Shown here: positions 1,222 to 7,677 of the stretch, piece by piece
Position numbering within the stretch: the first letter of the stretch is position 1
Layout of the letters: each line of letters begins with the position of its first letter
Assembly: GCA_030673425.1 (NCBI GenBank)
Contig: DAOVJB010000048.1
Location: 1-8,005, forward strand
Length of the DNA: 8,005 nt
From: Elusimicrobiota bacterium
GTDB taxonomy: Bacteria > CAYTYR01 > UBA6262 > DAOVJB01
Reading direction: 5' to 3'
Translations under genes and position numbers: made by a program
The notes under the pieces: generated by a model
Told to the model about the DNA's origin: nothing
The model's input: the letters and a program-made list of their open reading frames with translations, nothing else
The model's database searches: none

Positions 1222-1549
1222 AATAAATCCGCTTTATAGGGATAAAATCACTGTTAACCTATTAAAGTATAGACTAAAATAGTTTTATATCTATATTTTC
1301 TATTCTCTTTTGAGCTTTCTTAACCAGCTCGCTTTTAGGATATTCGTCAATAAGCTTTTTATAAGCGGCCTTAGCCTTATCAGATTCTTTCTTGCCTTCA
1401 TAACAATTCCCTAACATATACTGGGCATTATCGGTAAATTCAGAATCCTTATAGTAGAATAAAATCCAATCATATACCTCTATAGCTTTATCATACTTAT
1501 GTATGTAGTAGTAAAAGTTTCCTATCGTATATTCCACCTTGGGTGCCCA
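1041..1549. repeat. Conserved block of a tandem gene duplication
   Basis: The plus-strand stretches 1041-1098 and 1492-1549 align without gaps with 52 of 58 bases identical by my count. They encode the WAPKVE-TIGNFYY-KYDKA block of the two TPR paralogues. Similarity at DNA level also covers the start region (ATGTTTAA with upstream GGATTTRTT) but falls away towards the C-termini. This marks a duplication of about 450 bp whose core has stayed nearly identical. Confidence 0.85.
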
Positions 1550-1660
1550 GGCACTATCCTTATGGTTATCAGCATAAATCTCTATCTGGTCAATAATTTT
1601 TTCATGATAGATAACAATAAACATAAAAATAAGAAATAAAATTAACGACTTCTTAAACAT
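1274..1660 (-). CDS. Membrane-anchored TPR protein (tandem paralogue 2)
   Basis: A 128-residue paralogue of the protein at 814-1221. It has an N-terminal membrane segment (about residues 4-20), the conserved HKDSAWAPKVEYTIGNFYY block, a first TPR (KYDKAIEVYDW) and a second (NAQYMLGNCYEGKKESDKAKAAYKK split over two helices, then DEYPKSE). An upstream in-frame ATG at 1702 would add 14 residues. The start at 1660 is preferred because GAGGG lies 8 nt before it, the membrane helix then begins directly, and the start aligns with the paralogue's. It sits 68 bases downstream of the small coiled-coil gene. The likely role is a periplasmic protein-protein interaction scaffold anchored in the inner membrane; partners are not visible from sequence. 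Compared with paralogue 1 it lacks a few residues in the membrane segment and between the two TPRs. Confidence 0.85.
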   Translation of the reverse strand: MFKKSLILFLIFMFIVIYHEKIIDQIEIYADNHKDSAWAPKVEYTIGNFYYYIHKYDKAIEVYDWILFYYKDSEFTDNAQYMLGNCYEGKKESDKAKAAYKKLIDEYPKSELVKKAQKRIENIDIKLF

Positions 1661-1728
1661 AAACAAATCCCTCTTATAGTAGGGGTCGTTATCCCATTGC
1701 AATAAGTATATAAATTCTGGCCCTGTTT

Positions 1729-2088: not shown

Positions 2089-3048
2089 TCAAAACATAAA
2101 ACTTATCCCTGAAGAATAATAGTTAAATTCATCCTTGTTTTCATCTACATAAAGGGTATAACCTGAATTTAACTGCCAGCTCTCACTTAAAAAGCATTCT
2201 GCTTCCAGTGAATAGTAAAAAACCATTGAATTATCTATATAATTTATCAATCTGTTATAATCAAAACCCAAACAGAAGTAATCAGAAAAATATTGAGTCA
2301 AGTTTATACTATAACTACTCGCGGGAAAACTGGATATTGAAAATAAAACCCCTGGAAGTTTTGTATTAAAAATTCCTCCTAAAGCAAGAATAAAATCTAA
2401 ATATCTTTGAAATTGAGGGTTTTTTATGTCTTTATCATAGCTAAATGAGCTGTAATTAAGACTCAAAACTGTGTCTCTATAGAAAGTCTCTATTAATCCA
2501 AATGTCCAGCTATTCTGCTCTAATGTCCAGGTTGTATCTATATGTATTCTTTTCCGCCATACTGTAGTCGTGTCAATATATACATTTGCCGAGTGATTCG
2601 TCTGAGAGAAGTCTATAAATATCATGGTATCAAAATCATCATCATTGATCCCACCCTTGCTTTCACTAAAGGATAGATTAGCCCCGATAGTATCATATTT
2701 ATAACCAGCAATATCAGGACTAAAACTATATTGCATGCCGCTTGAGAAACTATCTGTAAAATTATATCCCAGGTTAAATAAATATGCTTTCTGGGTATCT
2801 TCGCTATTATCATCTTTTGAAAAGGAATACCCGATTGATGAATATAATCCATTATCAAAGTCAATGGATAAATCCAGACTATTTTCTAAATAGTCATCAG
2901 GACCAAAGGTCAGCCTATCCCCAAGCATCCCCCCAGCATAGCAGGTGCCAGAAACCGGACTATGAATAATAGATAGCTGATAAAATAGGAACAAGAAAGA
3001 TATTGTAAAAAATAAAATTATTAACTGCTTTTTAATAAAATTACCCAT
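2089..3048 (-). CDS. Predicted outer-membrane beta-barrel protein, family not recognised
   Basis: A 319-residue exported protein. A long basic-hydrophobic signal peptide (residues 1-38, MGNFIKKQLIILFF onward, likely cleaved at CYA-GG) is followed by repeated amphipathic strands of alternating residues, such as GLYSSIGYSFS, KAYLFNLGYNF, SFSSGMQYSFS, TVLSLNYSSFSY, FCLGFDYNRL and WQLNSGYTLYV. Asp/Asn-rich turns separate them. The chain ends in YYSSGISFMF; a terminal Phe is the classic signal for insertion by the BAM complex. The barrel may have 12 or more strands. I see no plug or catalytic motif and cannot name the family; it may be a porin-like or structural barrel. The ATG at 3048 has AGGGG 4 nt upstream. 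It follows the DUF3106-like gene by 98 bases, with a perfect hairpin in the gap, and is probably transcribed with the ECF cassette. Confidence 0.82.
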   Translation of the reverse strand: MGNFIKKQLIILFFTISFLFLFYQLSIIHSPVSGTCYAGGMLGDRLTFGPDDYLENSLDLSIDFDNGLYSSIGYSFSKDDNSEDTQKAYLFNLGYNFTDSFSSGMQYSFSPDIAGYKYDTIGANLSFSESKGGINDDDFDTMIFIDFSQTNHSANVYIDTTTVWRKRIHIDTTWTLEQNSWTFGLIETFYRDTVLSLNYSSFSYDKDIKNPQFQRYLDFILALGGIFNTKLPGVLFSISSFPASSYSINLTQYFSDYFCLGFDYNRLINYIDNSMVFYYSLEAECFLSESWQLNSGYTLYVDENKDEFNYYSSGISFMF

Positions 3049-3063: not shown

Positions 3064-3090
3064 ATAATGAGGGGATATTCCCCTCATTAT
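3064..3090 (-). promoter_or_regulatory. Perfect 12-bp hairpin in the leader of the beta-barrel gene
   Basis: ATAATGAGGGGA (3064-3075) and TCCCCTCATTAT (3079-3090) are exact inverted repeats around a 3-base loop. On the minus strand the hairpin ends 15 bases before the ATG of the barrel gene. No T-run follows it on that strand (the next bases are GCTTAAAGGGG), so it does not look like an intrinsic terminator. Its downstream arm contains TCCCCT, complementary both to its own upstream arm and to the AGGGGA ribosome site of the barrel gene (3052-3057). Translational control, mRNA processing or protection of upstream mRNA are possible roles. Confidence 0.7.
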
Positions 3091-3146
3091 ACTTACTATA
3101 TATTTTAGCTATTAGAAATTAACCCTGTTATAATTGTTTTTTCTAT

Positions 3147-3695
3147 TTACCTTCTTCTTTTTTGCTTTAGCTTCTTCTTCCTATGTTTCTTAATTATTTC
3201 TTCCCTTTTTTTGGGTGGTAAGCGCCTGAATTTTTTCAGTTTCCTTCTCAACTCCTTCTTCTGTTCAGGAGACAGTTTTTTCCATTTCCTTAGTTTATTT
3301 CTTATCTCTCTTCTTTCCTCAAAGGATAACTTATTCCACTTGTTGTAATTTGTTAAAATCGCCTTACGTTCATGAGGAGGTAGTTTCCTAAATTCAGCAA
3401 AATTCATTCTGAGTCTTTGTTTTTCTTCTTTAGACAGCATCTTATATTCTCTTAATTTCTCCTTGACTGCTTTTTTCTGCTCGGGACTAAGTTTTCCCCA
3501 TGCATGATATTTTTCTTTGATAACCTTTTTCTGTTTATCTGTTAATTTCTCCCATTTCTTCAGATTCTTTTTGAACTTTAGTTCCTGCTCTTCTGTTACA
3601 TCAGGACTCTTCCTGGCATCTTCAGCCCATGCAAAACTCACAAATAACCCCGCACAGAATGTCATTATCAGCAGAAATTTAATTAATCTTTTCAT
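3147..3695 (-). CDS. Exported polybasic DUF3106-like protein of 18-residue repeats
   Basis: A 182-residue protein with a clear signal peptide (MKRLIKFLLIMTFCAGLF, likely cleaved after AWA at residue 24) and then seven tandem 18-residue units up to about residue 168. Each unit has an aromatic residue at 48, 66, 84, 102, 120, 138 and 156 and a Leu three residues later (51 to 159), followed by S/P-P-E-Q-K-K-like helix caps, for example WKKLSPEQKKELR. The C-terminus is nearly all Lys/Arg. The pattern matches DUF3106, a family of unknown function. The protein should be periplasmic, helical and extremely basic. The ATG at 3695 has an excellent GAGGTGAGGG ribosome site. An ECF-type promoter lies just upstream, so the neighbouring sigma factor should induce it. 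It may bind acidic envelope partners or act like a CpxP/Spy-type stress protein, but that is inference. Confidence 0.85.
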   Translation of the reverse strand: MKRLIKFLLIMTFCAGLFVSFAWAEDARKSPDVTEEQELKFKKNLKKWEKLTDKQKKVIKEKYHAWGKLSPEQKKAVKEKLREYKMLSKEEKQRLRMNFAEFRKLPPHERKAILTNYNKWNKLSFEERREIRNKLRKWKKLSPEQKKELRRKLKKFRRLPPKKREEIIKKHRKKKLKQKRRR

Positions 3696-3720: not shown

Positions 3721-3749
3721 ATAGACGCATCTATTCCCATAAAGGTTAC
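3721..3749 (-). promoter_or_regulatory. ECF-sigma promoter for the DUF3106-like gene (P2)
   Basis: On the minus strand GTAACCTT (3742-3749) is followed by GCGTCTAT (3721-3728), giving TAACCTT-N15-GTCTAT, and then by TATGTAT. Element sequences and spacing match the promoter at 5089-5117 in front of the sigma gene. The -35 box overlaps the TAA stop of the 74-residue peptide gene. The start would be near 3714, about 19 nt before the ATG at 3695. Confidence 0.8.
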
Positions 3750-3970
3750 TCGCTGGTTGTATCAATAAACACTTCGTAATTATCAAATAGATCCCATTCT
3801 ACCAACATATCGAATATTTCCAATAAATCGTAATTATTTATTATCTCTATTTCCTGGTCGTCTAATTCCTTTTTTTTATCCGAAGCCACTGAAATCTCGG
3901 CATTTGCACCTGATGAGGTAAAAAATATCAGGCATAAAAATAAAAAATAAACATTAAGTTTTCTGTTCAT
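3746..3970 (-). CDS. Small exported acidic peptide with four hexad repeats
   Basis: A 74-residue protein with a signal peptide (MNRKLNVYFLFLCLIFF, likely cleaved after ANA at residue 24) and a mature part of about 50 residues. Residues 47-70 are four exact hexads: YDLLEI, FDMLVE, WDLFDN, YEVFID. The same four-hexad array, with D, D, D, E at position 2, forms the periplasmic tail of the anti-sigma factor encoded just upstream. The gene overlaps the anti-sigma gene by 17 bases, suggesting translational coupling. AGGAG lies 13 nt before the ATG, rather far. I know no family for it. Its position between an anti-sigma factor and a polybasic protein suggests a periplasmic decoy or co-regulator of the sigma system, which is inference. 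The start and coding status are supported by the signal peptide and the overlap. Confidence 0.75.
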   Translation of the reverse strand: MNRKLNVYFLFLCLIFFTSSGANAEISVASDKKKELDDQEIEIINNYDLLEIFDMLVEWDLFDNYEVFIDTTSE

Positions 3971-4442
3971 TAGATATATCAGTCTCCTGTAAGAGTTCTA
4001 AATTTTCCAGCAAATCAAGATTCTGGATGAGATCAAAGTCCATGAATAAGTCTATATTCTGTGCCAATTGCATCTGCTCATATGTTTTATTCTTATTGAC
4101 TAAATAAAGACTGCTTGAGGCTACTAGAATAATCACCAATAATGAAGTAGCTAAAATCGGGGCTAACTTAGGTTCAATAAAGACATTCTTATAGAACCTG
4201 GCTAAAGGAGAGCTTTCATCAATCTTCTGATAAACGTTATCCAGATAAGAATCCCATAATTCCTCTCCGGGTTCAATATCTCTTCTTTGATCAACCAATC
4301 TTAAAGTTTCCTCTATTTCTTTTAGCATATCACGGCAGGTTTGACATTGTTTAAGATGAGTATCAACCACAGCTGATTTTTCACTATCTAATTCTTTATA
4401 ATAGTAAAGGATTAATTCATTTTGGATTTCGTCGCATTTCAT
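3954..4442 (-). CDS. Zinc-finger anti-sigma factor, single membrane helix
   Basis: A 162-residue transmembrane anti-sigma factor expected to hold the ECF sigma factor encoded directly upstream. The cytoplasmic N-terminus carries the zf-HC2/ZAS zinc motif H29-x3-C33-x2-C36 (HLKQCQTC), with C3 as a possible further ligand. A linker leads to one membrane helix at about 93-115 (LAPILATSLLVIILV). The short periplasmic tail ends with four acidic/hydrophobic hexads at 130-153 (IDLFMD, FDLIQN, LDLLEN, LELLQE). The tail is far too short to be a folded sensor domain, so signalling probably depends on binding partners or proteolysis. The ATG at 4442 has a perfect AGGAGG 9 nt upstream and starts 1 nt after the sigma gene ends; the gene's 3' end overlaps the acidic peptide gene. 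Confidence 0.92.
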   Translation of the reverse strand: MKCDEIQNELILYYYKELDSEKSAVVDTHLKQCQTCRDMLKEIEETLRLVDQRRDIEPGEELWDSYLDNVYQKIDESSPLARFYKNVFIEPKLAPILATSLLVIILVASSSLYLVNKNKTYEQMQLAQNIDLFMDFDLIQNLDLLENLELLQETDISNEQKT

Positions 4443-4443
4443 T

Positions 4444-5070
4444 TCAACCCACCTCCTGTTTATAATCCGCTAAGTATGTCCTAAGATTTTTTATCGCTTT
4501 AAATAAACTTGCTTTTATTCCTCCTTCAGTAGCATCTAAAATATCAGCAACTTCTGAAATTTTTAATCCTTGAAAATGCTTTAAGACAAATATCTCTTTT
4601 TGTTTCTTAGGCAAACTTTTAACGGCATTCTCAATCGCCGTATTCAATTCTTTATTAATTGCTGCTTTTACTGGACTACTTTGCCAGGATGTATCTTCTA
4701 TGCTGGTATCCAATGTTTTCTCGGGTTCGTCTGTCATTTCATCTTTTTGCCGGAAATGAAAGCTGAACTTAGCAACCAAATACCTGTGTCTTAAATGACT
4801 CCGGCATAGATTAATAATAATCCTGTAAAACCATGTCTTAAAGCTGGCCTTTCCCTTGAATTTATAAATATTCTTATACACCCTTACAAAAGCCTCCTGG
4901 GATATATCCTCCGCATCGCTCTGGTTGCTGATCATACTATAGGCAAAATAATATGCCTGTTTTTTATATTTGTTAACCAGCTCATCAAAAGCATCTATAT
5001 CCCCATCCTTGCACCTTTCTACTAAGGAGTTATCACTATATTCAGTTGTGGATTTCAAATCTTCTGCCAC
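4444..5070 (-). CDS. ECF-type RNA polymerase sigma factor (RpoE-like)
   Basis: A 208-residue group IV sigma factor. Region 2 spans about 26-95 (DAFDELVNKYKKQAYYFA, SDAEDISQEAFVRVYKNIYKF and the -10-binding FKTWFYRIIINLCRSHLR). A charged linker of about 50 residues follows, then region 4 at about 145-200 (SLPKKQKEIFVLKHFQGLK, the helix-turn-helix ISEVADILDATEGGIKASL). It lacks regions 1 and 3, as expected for ECF factors. The start is GTG at 5070: TAA directly precedes it and GGAG lies 7 nt upstream. It is followed after 1 nt by its anti-sigma gene. The ECF-like promoter just upstream implies autoregulation, and the same motif precedes the DUF3106-like gene. It probably runs an envelope response whose inducer is not evident. 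Confidence 0.95.
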   Translation of the reverse strand: MAEDLKSTTEYSDNSLVERCKDGDIDAFDELVNKYKKQAYYFAYSMISNQSDAEDISQEAFVRVYKNIYKFKGKASFKTWFYRIIINLCRSHLRHRYLVAKFSFHFRQKDEMTDEPEKTLDTSIEDTSWQSSPVKAAINKELNTAIENAVKSLPKKQKEIFVLKHFQGLKISEVADILDATEGGIKASLFKAIKNLRTYLADYKQEVG

Positions 5071-5157: not shown

Positions 5158-7677
5158 TTATTGCTCCTGATAGACGGGAAGGGTGAAATAAAAAGTGCTT
5201 CCCTCTCCTAATTTACTTTCCACCCAGACACTACCGCCGTGAAGTTCTACCACCCGCTTCACAAGAGCTAACCCTAAGCCAGCACCTTCAATCTGTCCGC
5301 TAAATCCCTCCTCAACCTGATAGAACCTTTGAAATATTTTGTCAAATTCCTCTCCAGGTATACCCGGACCATTGTCTTGTATCTTTATCCTGATGAATTT
5401 ATTATCTATTGAAATAGCTTCAATTTTTACTTCTTTGGTTTCTTTATTGTTAAATTTTACAGCATTTTCAAGTAGATTTACAACACTTTCTTTAATTCTA
5501 TCCCCATCCACATAAATCCTGGACAGTTTCATTAATGAATTATCAATAAATATCTGAGCTTTGTTTTTCTCAATTAATGGTTTTAAGTTAGACAGTACTG
5601 ATTGAATTAACATATTCAAATCTACAGAACTGCGTTTCAATTCTATGGTTTCTGATTCCAAAGTAGTAAAAGAAATCAATTCATTTATAAGTCCAGAAAG
5701 AATCTGACTTCTTTCACTGATATTTTGCACAATTTCTTTTTGAGAATCATTCAATTCTTTTTGCATAAGCAACAACTCCGTATATCCAATAATCGGAGTA
5801 AGCGGAGTTCTAAGTTTATGTGATACTAACGCCAGGAAATTTTTCTTTAACGCCTCTTCGGTCCGCTCAACAGTAACATCACGCAAAATCATAATATAGC
5901 CTAAGGTATTTCCTTTATCATCAACAATTTTATTTACTTTGTTAGAAATAAAGAAAGATTGCCCTTTACCTCTGGACATCTCGCAAATGAAACTTCTCTT
6001 TTCACTTTTTTGAAATTCTTCAAGAGACGGCGATATGTTAAAATTTCCTATTACTTCAGTAAAATTCCTGTTCGAAAAATCGACAGGTGTTAAATTGAGA
6101 AGGTTACAGGAAGCTTCATTAAACATCATTATTCTTAGTTTAATATCTGTAAGTATCGCTCCATCACTCATATTATTAAAAACTGTTATCATTTTTTCTT
6201 TTTCTTGACTTAAATCACTAAATAACTGTGCATTCTTAATCGCAACAGCCGCATCATTAGCCAAAGTAGAAAGTATATCTAAATCCTCTTGTGTATACAT
6301 ATCTCCTGAAAGTTTATCACCTAAAATAAACAATCCCAGCAAACCGCTTTTATAAAAACTGGGGATGACTACACTTGCTCCTAATGTCTCTAAATCAAGC
6401 TTTATATTATTTAATTCGTATTGTAAATCCTTATAACTTCTAAATAGAGCTTCATTTTCTAACCAATGGTCTAATTCTTCCTTAACTAAGACACTCACCT
6501 CTTTTTTCTTTAATAATTTTCTTTTAACTAATACATCCTTTGTTGTTATAAACCACTTTATTAATGAACTATCCTTTCCCAATTTTATGTCTTTTATTTT
6601 GGTCTCTCCGTAAAAACCCTTAATTGCATAATGTTTAACAATATCATCCCATACTAAAATAAAAGTATGCTGAACTCTTATCTTTTTATTGAGAAAACGA
6701 GCAATTACTGACAACAACCTATCAGGATCGGTAATATCTATCATACCTTTACTGGCTTCCTTCAATGTTTTTTGATAATCATATTTTTTTTGAAAAAGCC
6801 AGCGGTCAGTAACTTTTACTAACAAACGATAAAGAGGAAAAGCAGTAATCAATATAACTAAAAAAATCAAACCTATTATTATCCACCAAACACCGCTAAA
6901 AGTATGTCTTAAAAATTCCTGCCATAAAAACATCGGCAGATACATAACCGCTACCACCCCACCAAAAAGAATTCCGAAAATAAATGTCCTCTTGATGATA
7001 ACACTAATATCCATCAACCGATAGCGGACAATGGCATAGGCAACAGTCAAAACATACATTGGAACCAGGTATGTTCCAAAAGGATAAATCTTTAAACCAA
7101 AAACTAGGAAAAAAGTGGTTGAACCTCCTGCAAAACCTGGAATTACTCCTAAAAGTAAGTATTTAATTTGATTCCGTCTATATGAAAGAGAATTCTTTAG
7201 TTCCTTAAATAATATAACTGTTCCATATATTGTTAAATAAGCAAATATTAATGGAAATAAATAATATAAAAAACCCGGAATAGGGTAATACTTAAAGCTA
7301 AATTTAGGGATTACATCCGCAACAAAGCTATGTGGAGAAATTAATACTAATAGGAAATAAACCAATATAGCTAAATAATAGTAAAGTAATTCTTTTCTTT
7401 TAACTTTAAGTTTATTTGCAAAGGAGAGAACAAAGTGGAAGAAAAAAACAGGAGTGAATATAGCGGATAAATTAAGAAAACGCCCCCAGAATAAAGCTAT
7501 ATTTTTATAATCAGTACTAAATGCTCTGAATAATCCCAAACCCCACAGAGCTACAGATAAGCTGAACAAGCTCCATGCAACTCTTGTATGCCCTTTTGGG
7601 GCCTTTAAATATACAAGAATAGCAGAGATTAAACTACTAATAAATATTAATATACCAGAAATCGCTAAATGATTCAT
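5158..7677 (-). CDS. 7TM-GAF-PAS hybrid-membrane sensor histidine kinase
   Basis: An 839-residue inner-membrane sensor kinase. The N-terminal ~220 residues form seven hydrophobic helices of the HisKA_7TM type (MNHLAISGILIFISSLISA onward). Two more helices lie at about 230-250 and 260-285, then a GAF-like domain (about 317-487), a PAS domain (about 495-605), a HisKA dimerisation domain with phospho-acceptor H620, and a HATPase_c domain. The latter shows the N box (ENAVKFN, N738), G1 (DNGPGIPG, D768), F box (FQRFYQ) and G2 (GAGLGLALVK, from G798), so ATP binding is intact. The H box reads SHKLRTPL, with Lys at H+1 where most HisKA kinases have Glu or Asp. No response regulator is encoded in the window. 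It starts 7 nt after the methyltransferase gene ends and has no strong ribosome site, suggesting translational coupling. The signal is unknown. Confidence 0.93.
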   Translation of the reverse strand: MNHLAISGILIFISSLISAILVYLKAPKGHTRVAWSLFSLSVALWGLGLFRAFSTDYKNIALFWGRFLNLSAIFTPVFFFHFVLSFANKLKVKRKELLYYYLAILVYFLLVLISPHSFVADVIPKFSFKYYPIPGFLYYLFPLIFAYLTIYGTVILFKELKNSLSYRRNQIKYLLLGVIPGFAGGSTTFFLVFGLKIYPFGTYLVPMYVLTVAYAIVRYRLMDISVIIKRTFIFGILFGGVVAVMYLPMFLWQEFLRHTFSGVWWIIIGLIFLVILITAFPLYRLLVKVTDRWLFQKKYDYQKTLKEASKGMIDITDPDRLLSVIARFLNKKIRVQHTFILVWDDIVKHYAIKGFYGETKIKDIKLGKDSSLIKWFITTKDVLVKRKLLKKKEVSVLVKEELDHWLENEALFRSYKDLQYELNNIKLDLETLGASVVIPSFYKSGLLGLFILGDKLSGDMYTQEDLDILSTLANDAAVAIKNAQLFSDLSQEKEKMITVFNNMSDGAILTDIKLRIMMFNEASCNLLNLTPVDFSNRNFTEVIGNFNISPSLEEFQKSEKRSFICEMSRGKGQSFFISNKVNKIVDDKGNTLGYIMILRDVTVERTEEALKKNFLALVSHKLRTPLTPIIGYTELLLMQKELNDSQKEIVQNISERSQILSGLINELISFTTLESETIELKRSSVDLNMLIQSVLSNLKPLIEKNKAQIFIDNSLMKLSRIYVDGDRIKESVVNLLENAVKFNNKETKEVKIEAISIDNKFIRIKIQDNGPGIPGEEFDKIFQRFYQVEEGFSGQIEGAGLGLALVKRVVELHGGSVWVESKLGEGSTFYFTLPVYQEQ

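Follow-up and report, generated by a model that had tools for sequence, protein, structure and literature searches.

A sigma factor locus encodes an exported peptide that shares the acidic hexad array of the neighbouring anti-sigma tail and may compete with it for a DUF3106 protein

The window, meaning the whole stretch of 8,005 nucleotides that was analysed, makes up a single contig in a draft genome of 1.3 Mb. Its central part holds the genes of an ECF sigma factor, a membrane anti-sigma factor, a short exported peptide and a DUF3106 protein, flanked by a histidine kinase gene and the gene of a probable outer-membrane protein:

5158-7677, minus strand: histidine kinase, 839 aa
5090-5117, minus strand: P1, ECF-type promoter-like site GTAAACT-N14-GCGTCTA before the sigma gene (exact motif)
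4444-5070, minus strand: ECF sigma factor, 208 aa (Sigma70_r2, E = 4.6e-19; Sigma70_r4_2, E = 1.7e-11; TIGR02937 over its cut-off)
3954-4442, minus strand: membrane anti-sigma factor, 162 aa (zf-HC2), kept in three relatives
4095-4160, minus strand: predicted membrane segment of the anti-sigma factor, about residues 95-116 (hydrophobic stretch recognised by eye)
3984-4055, minus strand: acidic four-hexad array of the anti-sigma tail, residues 130-153 (hexad alignment and matrix score)
3746-3970, minus strand: exported array peptide, 74 aa (conserved position and purifying selection)
3899-3970, minus strand: putative signal peptide of the 74-aa peptide, residues 1-24, with ANA before the cut (by eye)
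3761-3832, minus strand: acidic four-hexad array of the peptide, residues 47-70 (hexad alignment and matrix score)
3722-3749, minus strand: P2, promoter-like site GTAACCT-N14-GCGTCTA before the DUF3106 gene (exact motif), its upstream end overlapping the stop codon of the peptide
3147-3695, minus strand: DUF3106 protein, 182 aa, a predicted basic helical solenoid with a signal sequence (PF11304, E = 2.3e-26; predicted model)
2089-3048, minus strand: probable outer-membrane beta-barrel protein, 319 aa (OMP_b-brl, E = 0.013, below cut-off), position kept in three relatives

The sigma factor is of the ECF type, with sigma-70 regions 2 and 4 only and a TIGR02937 score of 124.1 bits (cut-off 42.9), and the anti-sigma factor, whose gene adjoins it, is of the zf-HC2 type (23.4 bits, cut-off 22.2). 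The protein encoded after the peptide is a clear member of DUF3106 (92.7 bits, cut-off 24.3), a family without a stated function. Five genomes of the window's phylum were compared, namely the window's own (G000) and G001, G002, G003 and G004; the order sigma, anti-sigma, peptide, DUF3106, outer-membrane protein is found in all four that bear DUF3106.

The frames of the anti-sigma factor and the peptide overlap by 17 nt (3954-3970), and the three relatives retain the peptide at the same position. Among them the peptide frame has a dN/dS of 0.10-0.31, with one pair nearly saturated at synonymous sites, and this purifying selection bears out the view of the earlier note, made from the window's sequence, that the 74-residue frame is a gene; a chance or shadow frame is ruled out by the dN/dS values, the conservation and the shuffles described below. 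A profile built solely from the four anti-sigma sequences recovered the peptide alone in two relatives (E = 1.5e-5 and 2.1e-4), at the profile's membrane-plus-tail positions, and matched the peptide of the third relative weakly (E = 0.11). Judged from these matches, the peptide resembles a duplicated C-terminal portion of the anti-sigma factor and paralogy is plausible, short repeats being no proof of it. When its structure was predicted alone, the peptide showed no confident fold and was weakly helical (pLDDT 57), a model that fits a short element folding upon binding but that might also stem from a shallow alignment.

Residues 130-153 of the anti-sigma factor (IDLFMDFDLIQNLDLLENLELLQE) and residues 47-70 of the peptide (YDLLEIFDMLVEWDLFDNYEVFID) align without gaps over four hexads, with 8 of 24 residues identical. 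The earlier note had pointed to this alignment, and re-reading of the sequence confirmed that position 2 is acidic, reading D, D, D, E through the four hexads, and that Phe starts hexad 2, each in both arrays; in the relatives both arrays open that hexad with Tyr. With a hexad scoring matrix from whose training the peptide was excluded, the peptide scored 23.5 over four hexads, a value that none of 5000 shuffles reached (shuffle maximum 11.9), and the tail, which was in the training set, scored 47.9 (shuffle maximum 20.3). The identity between tail and peptide over 28 aa was reached by 35, 0 and 47 of 20000 shuffles in three of the four genomes, but by 4438 of 20000 in G003, where it is no better than shuffles; pattern and register therefore appear to be conserved more than exact residues, the conserved unit being h-[DE]-h-h-x-x plus the register. 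The tail remained below the cut-off of the LED repeat (PF20854; 15.5 bits versus 59), to which the window peptide had no match, and a literature search found no paper joining the LED repeat to an anti-sigma factor.

Two arrays with a common pattern and register, down to the residue that opens hexad 2, could in principle belong to partners of one another, the peptide binding the anti-sigma tail itself and shielding it from proteolysis or from DUF3106. We regard this as improbable, since both arrays are strongly acidic, which disfavours direct pairing, and since the variable to which they are linked is DUF3106. Within the window's phylum both arrays are present in all four DUF3106-bearing genomes. 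The fifth genome, G001, has no DUF3106 match, its nearest anti-sigma locus is without an array, and the third slot there holds an LTXXQ/Metal_resist (Spy/CnrX-type) protein (Metal_resist, 45.8 bits, cut-off 29.2). The anti-sigma frame of G001 (L101, 1501-1989, plus strand) has one in-frame TAG at codon 40 and is followed by the LTXXQ/Metal_resist gene; decay, a sequencing error or recoding may account for the TAG.

The same linkage was found in two larger surveys, one of 377 genomes of the phylum of a Deltaproteobacteria-labelled genome (delta-type) and one of 95 genomes of the Rokubacteria phylum, using an array profile to which 16 delta-type genomes and none of the Rokubacteria phylum had contributed. 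DUF3106 is present in 80 of the 377 and 64 of the 95 genomes, and the array profile is matched by 39 and 35, respectively, each of them among the DUF3106 bearers. All 74 array-matching genomes hence bear DUF3106, none of the matches being more than 1.7 kb away from it; P values for this co-occurrence ignore shared ancestry and overstate independence, because the co-occurrence is phylogenetically correlated. Across 60 delta-type loci, array scores were obtained for 58 of 770 same-strand ORFs in the neighbourhood of DUF3106 and for 0 of 2888 farther off. Five array-like ORFs on the opposite strand, not far from the array region, probably reflect that region read on the reverse strand. Taken together, the surveys and the short distances mark the C-terminal array of the anti-sigma factor as a general DUF3106-linked module. 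Verrucomicrobia loci have diverged tails, with hexads in only a few.

These data also bear on what reads the tail. The earlier note had proposed an unnamed ligand or a protease, for which the peptide would be a decoy, and membrane anti-sigma factors are indeed commonly under regulated proteolysis (PMC4598750). We consider a decoy role towards such a ligand, or towards a site-1 protease cleaving the tail, improbable, as the arrays track DUF3106 and not a neighbouring protease, and no protease gene was recognised within the window. DUF3106 adjoins the array in every array-matching genome, and the product of this next gene is the likely reader of the tail.

Free array peptides also occur outside the window's phylum. 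A small exported protein is encoded between the anti-sigma factor and DUF3106, directly before the latter, in 24 of 26 Rokubacteria-type loci; these peptides, of about 83-104 aa, carry the array in full or in part, and in a few of them it is uncertain where the frame starts. At least 17 of the 60 delta-type loci have a separate exported array peptide, located between the anti-sigma factor and DUF3106, upstream of the sigma gene or, in one case, downstream of DUF3106, and most of the 60 have none that was detected. The joint presence of both arrays in orthologous loci, on which the earlier proposal depended, thus stood within the window's phylum, where the arrays occur together in four genomes and are both absent from the fifth, and was not detected in most delta-type loci. 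A one-phylum oddity is ruled out by the delta-type and Rokubacteria-type peptides: the pair of tail and peptide recurs in at least three bacterial phyla, always beside DUF3106. The peptide is thus a recurrent and un-named third component of an ECF sigma module, and the representatives scanned matched no Pfam or NCBIfam family. The free peptides of one delta-type group (L160, L186, L189, L190, L192 and L196) have in common a C-terminal motif, WDPxE[DN]LPI, after the hexads.

Since both arrays are genuine, lie in coding frames and are jointly conserved within the window's phylum, and free exported copies exist elsewhere, a soluble partner of the tail is no accident, and its recurrence beside a basic periplasmic DUF3106 protein suggests that the peptide competes with the tail for DUF3106. 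The most serious alternative is that the peptide is a permanent partner that folds on and stabilises DUF3106, in which case the complex, and not DUF3106 alone, would read the tail or stressed proteins. The position directly before DUF3106 in the Rokubacteria-type loci would suit such a subunit, as would the lack of a confident fold of the peptide alone and the unlikeness of certain peptide arrays to the tail arrays; most delta-type loci, however, keep DUF3106 and the tail without a detected peptide, and the position of the peptide varies, including sites upstream of sigma, so that we consider a permanent subunit unlikely, although a real contender.

In five delta-type loci the free peptide is immediately preceded by a large exported ORF that has no Pfam match and may encode an outer-membrane barrel (L109, 2545-3987; L110, 1380-2999; L111, 1294-2703; L112, 11235-12731; L113, 4427-5902). 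Together with the probable barrel encoded after DUF3106 in the window's phylum, these ORFs would be in keeping with a peptide that is a small assembly or sensing partner of an outer-membrane protein and has only its DUF3106-binding array in common with the switch. This appears rather improbable to us, as the barrel assignments are sub-threshold or without a Pfam match, and the Rokubacteria-type peptide sits between the anti-sigma factor and DUF3106, in loci whose genes were classed as far as DUF3106.

The DUF3106 protein of the window is a confidently predicted basic helical solenoid, modelled as short helices of about 15 residues every 18 (pLDDT 89, pTM 0.52), with a net charge of +39 when the first 25 residues are excluded. 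All 61 delta-type DUF3106 domains measured carry a net positive charge, and the net charge of both peptide and tail is negative in each of the four window-phylum genomes; opposite charge by itself is weak evidence of contact between DUF3106 and the arrays. A search of the PDB by sequence and by fold gave no convincing match to DUF3106, which implies neither novelty nor difference, and a search of an open literature library found no paper on DUF3106, nor one linking it to acidic hexad tails or array peptides.

An exact GTAAMCT-N14-GCGTCTA precedes the sigma gene in the window's genome, G002, G003 and G004. The window contains two exact matches, P1 and P2, where 0.58 would be expected even with up to three mismatches, and the P2 site before DUF3106 is absent in the relatives (G002, G003, G004). 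Judged by the sequence motifs, the sites are placed as in the regulon of an envelope-stress sigma factor that controls its own gene. With the motif reversed as a control, each genome yielded 0 to 5 matches, a background that is not negligible. A conserved exported gene with LTDxQK motifs and no significant Pfam match (L249, L240, L241 and L242 in G000, G002, G003 and G004, respectively) is a probable member of the sigma regulon: in each of the four genomes its start is preceded, at a distance of 62-71 bases, by GTAAACC-N14-GCGTCT, which has one mismatch. In the window's genome, a one-mismatch site also lies 67 bases before the start of a lipoprotein-like 319-aa gene (L252, 501-1460, minus strand, G000:C179).

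We propose, with a probability of roughly 0.4, that tail and peptide are two ligands of DUF3106 and that the peptide is a soluble competitor within an ECF sigma switch that responds to envelope stress and regulates itself. From the membrane, the anti-sigma factor would retain the sigma factor in the cytoplasm and display its acidic, leucine-rich hexad array in the periplasm, where the basic solenoid of DUF3106 would dock on it and thereby set anti-sigma activity, in a manner similar to the action of CnrX on CnrY or CpxP on CpxA. The exported peptide, a product of the sigma operon, would be a second, soluble ligand of the same DUF3106 surface, and by competing with the tail it would set the threshold or the recovery. 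Because the window has a second promoter for DUF3106, induction would there raise DUF3106 over the peptide, and the peptide could set a threshold or a delay. The architecture, the conservation, the coding constraint, the co-occurrence of the arrays with DUF3106, the opposite charges and the common promoter motif are observations, and from them we infer the binding of DUF3106 to the arrays, the competition and the sign of the effect; the reading is favoured by the co-occurrence in 74 of 74 genomes, the absence of DUF3106 together with both arrays in G001, the opposite charges, the recurrence of exported array peptides, the motif common to P1 and P2 and the precedents of CnrX, RseB and CpxP, and it is weakened by the majority of delta-type loci, which have no detected peptide, the relatives without P2 and the lack of a significant CnrX or Spy fold match. 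The earlier decoy idea would thus survive in revised form, with DUF3106 as the shared partner.

Periplasmic proteins that act on membrane regulators are known from CnrX on CnrY and RseB on RseA (PMC4598750) and from CpxP on CpxA, where misfolded proteins titrate the periplasmic protein (PMC6737893). In CnrYXH of Cupriavidus metallidurans, an ECF sigma factor, a membrane anti-sigma factor and a periplasmic sensor are likewise encoded together, the anti-sigma factor being the presumed target of the sensor (PMC4598750); DUF3106, however, stays below the Metal_resist cut-off (PF13801; 14.2 bits versus 29.2, E = 0.05), and structural comparison of its predicted model with CnrX gave no significant match (Foldseek E = 8; VIA Z 2.5-2.6 over 55 residues), nor did comparison with Spy. 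RseB resembles the proposed sensor as a periplasmic protein encoded beside the anti-sigma factor, whose periplasmic part it binds, setting signalling (PMC4598750), whereas DUF3106 has no match to the RseB family. CpxP/Spy is a stress-induced periplasmic helical protein that is thought to bind the periplasmic part of CpxA until misfolded proteins titrate it away (PMC6737893). CpxA, in contrast, is a histidine kinase and not an anti-sigma factor, no soluble copy of its sensor part has been described, and DUF3106 gave no LTXXQ (PF07813, Spy/CpxP) row up to E = 1. To our knowledge, CnrYXH has neither an acidic tail array nor a soluble array peptide, and we know of no soluble copy of the RseA tail. 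A literature search found no paper joining an anti-sigma factor, a periplasmic peptide and a decoy.

We put forward only tentatively the wider claim that this is a widespread form of feedback, in which the sensory tail of an anti-sigma factor is mimicked by a soluble peptide exported from the same sigma operon, and the mimic competes for a DUF3106 sensor and sets the threshold of the envelope-stress response. If true, such a soluble mimic would offer an uncomplicated way to tune a stress switch. DUF3106, so far a family of no known function, gains a candidate role and candidate partners, and the predictions of the module are open to direct test with short peptides and one small protein.

Two further features of the window were noticed. 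A near-perfect inverted repeat (AATGAGGGGATATTCCCCTCATT) lies at about 3066-3091, between the DUF3106 and outer-membrane genes, and two adjacent small TPR proteins (814-1221 and 1274-1702, minus strand) look like paralogues of each other.
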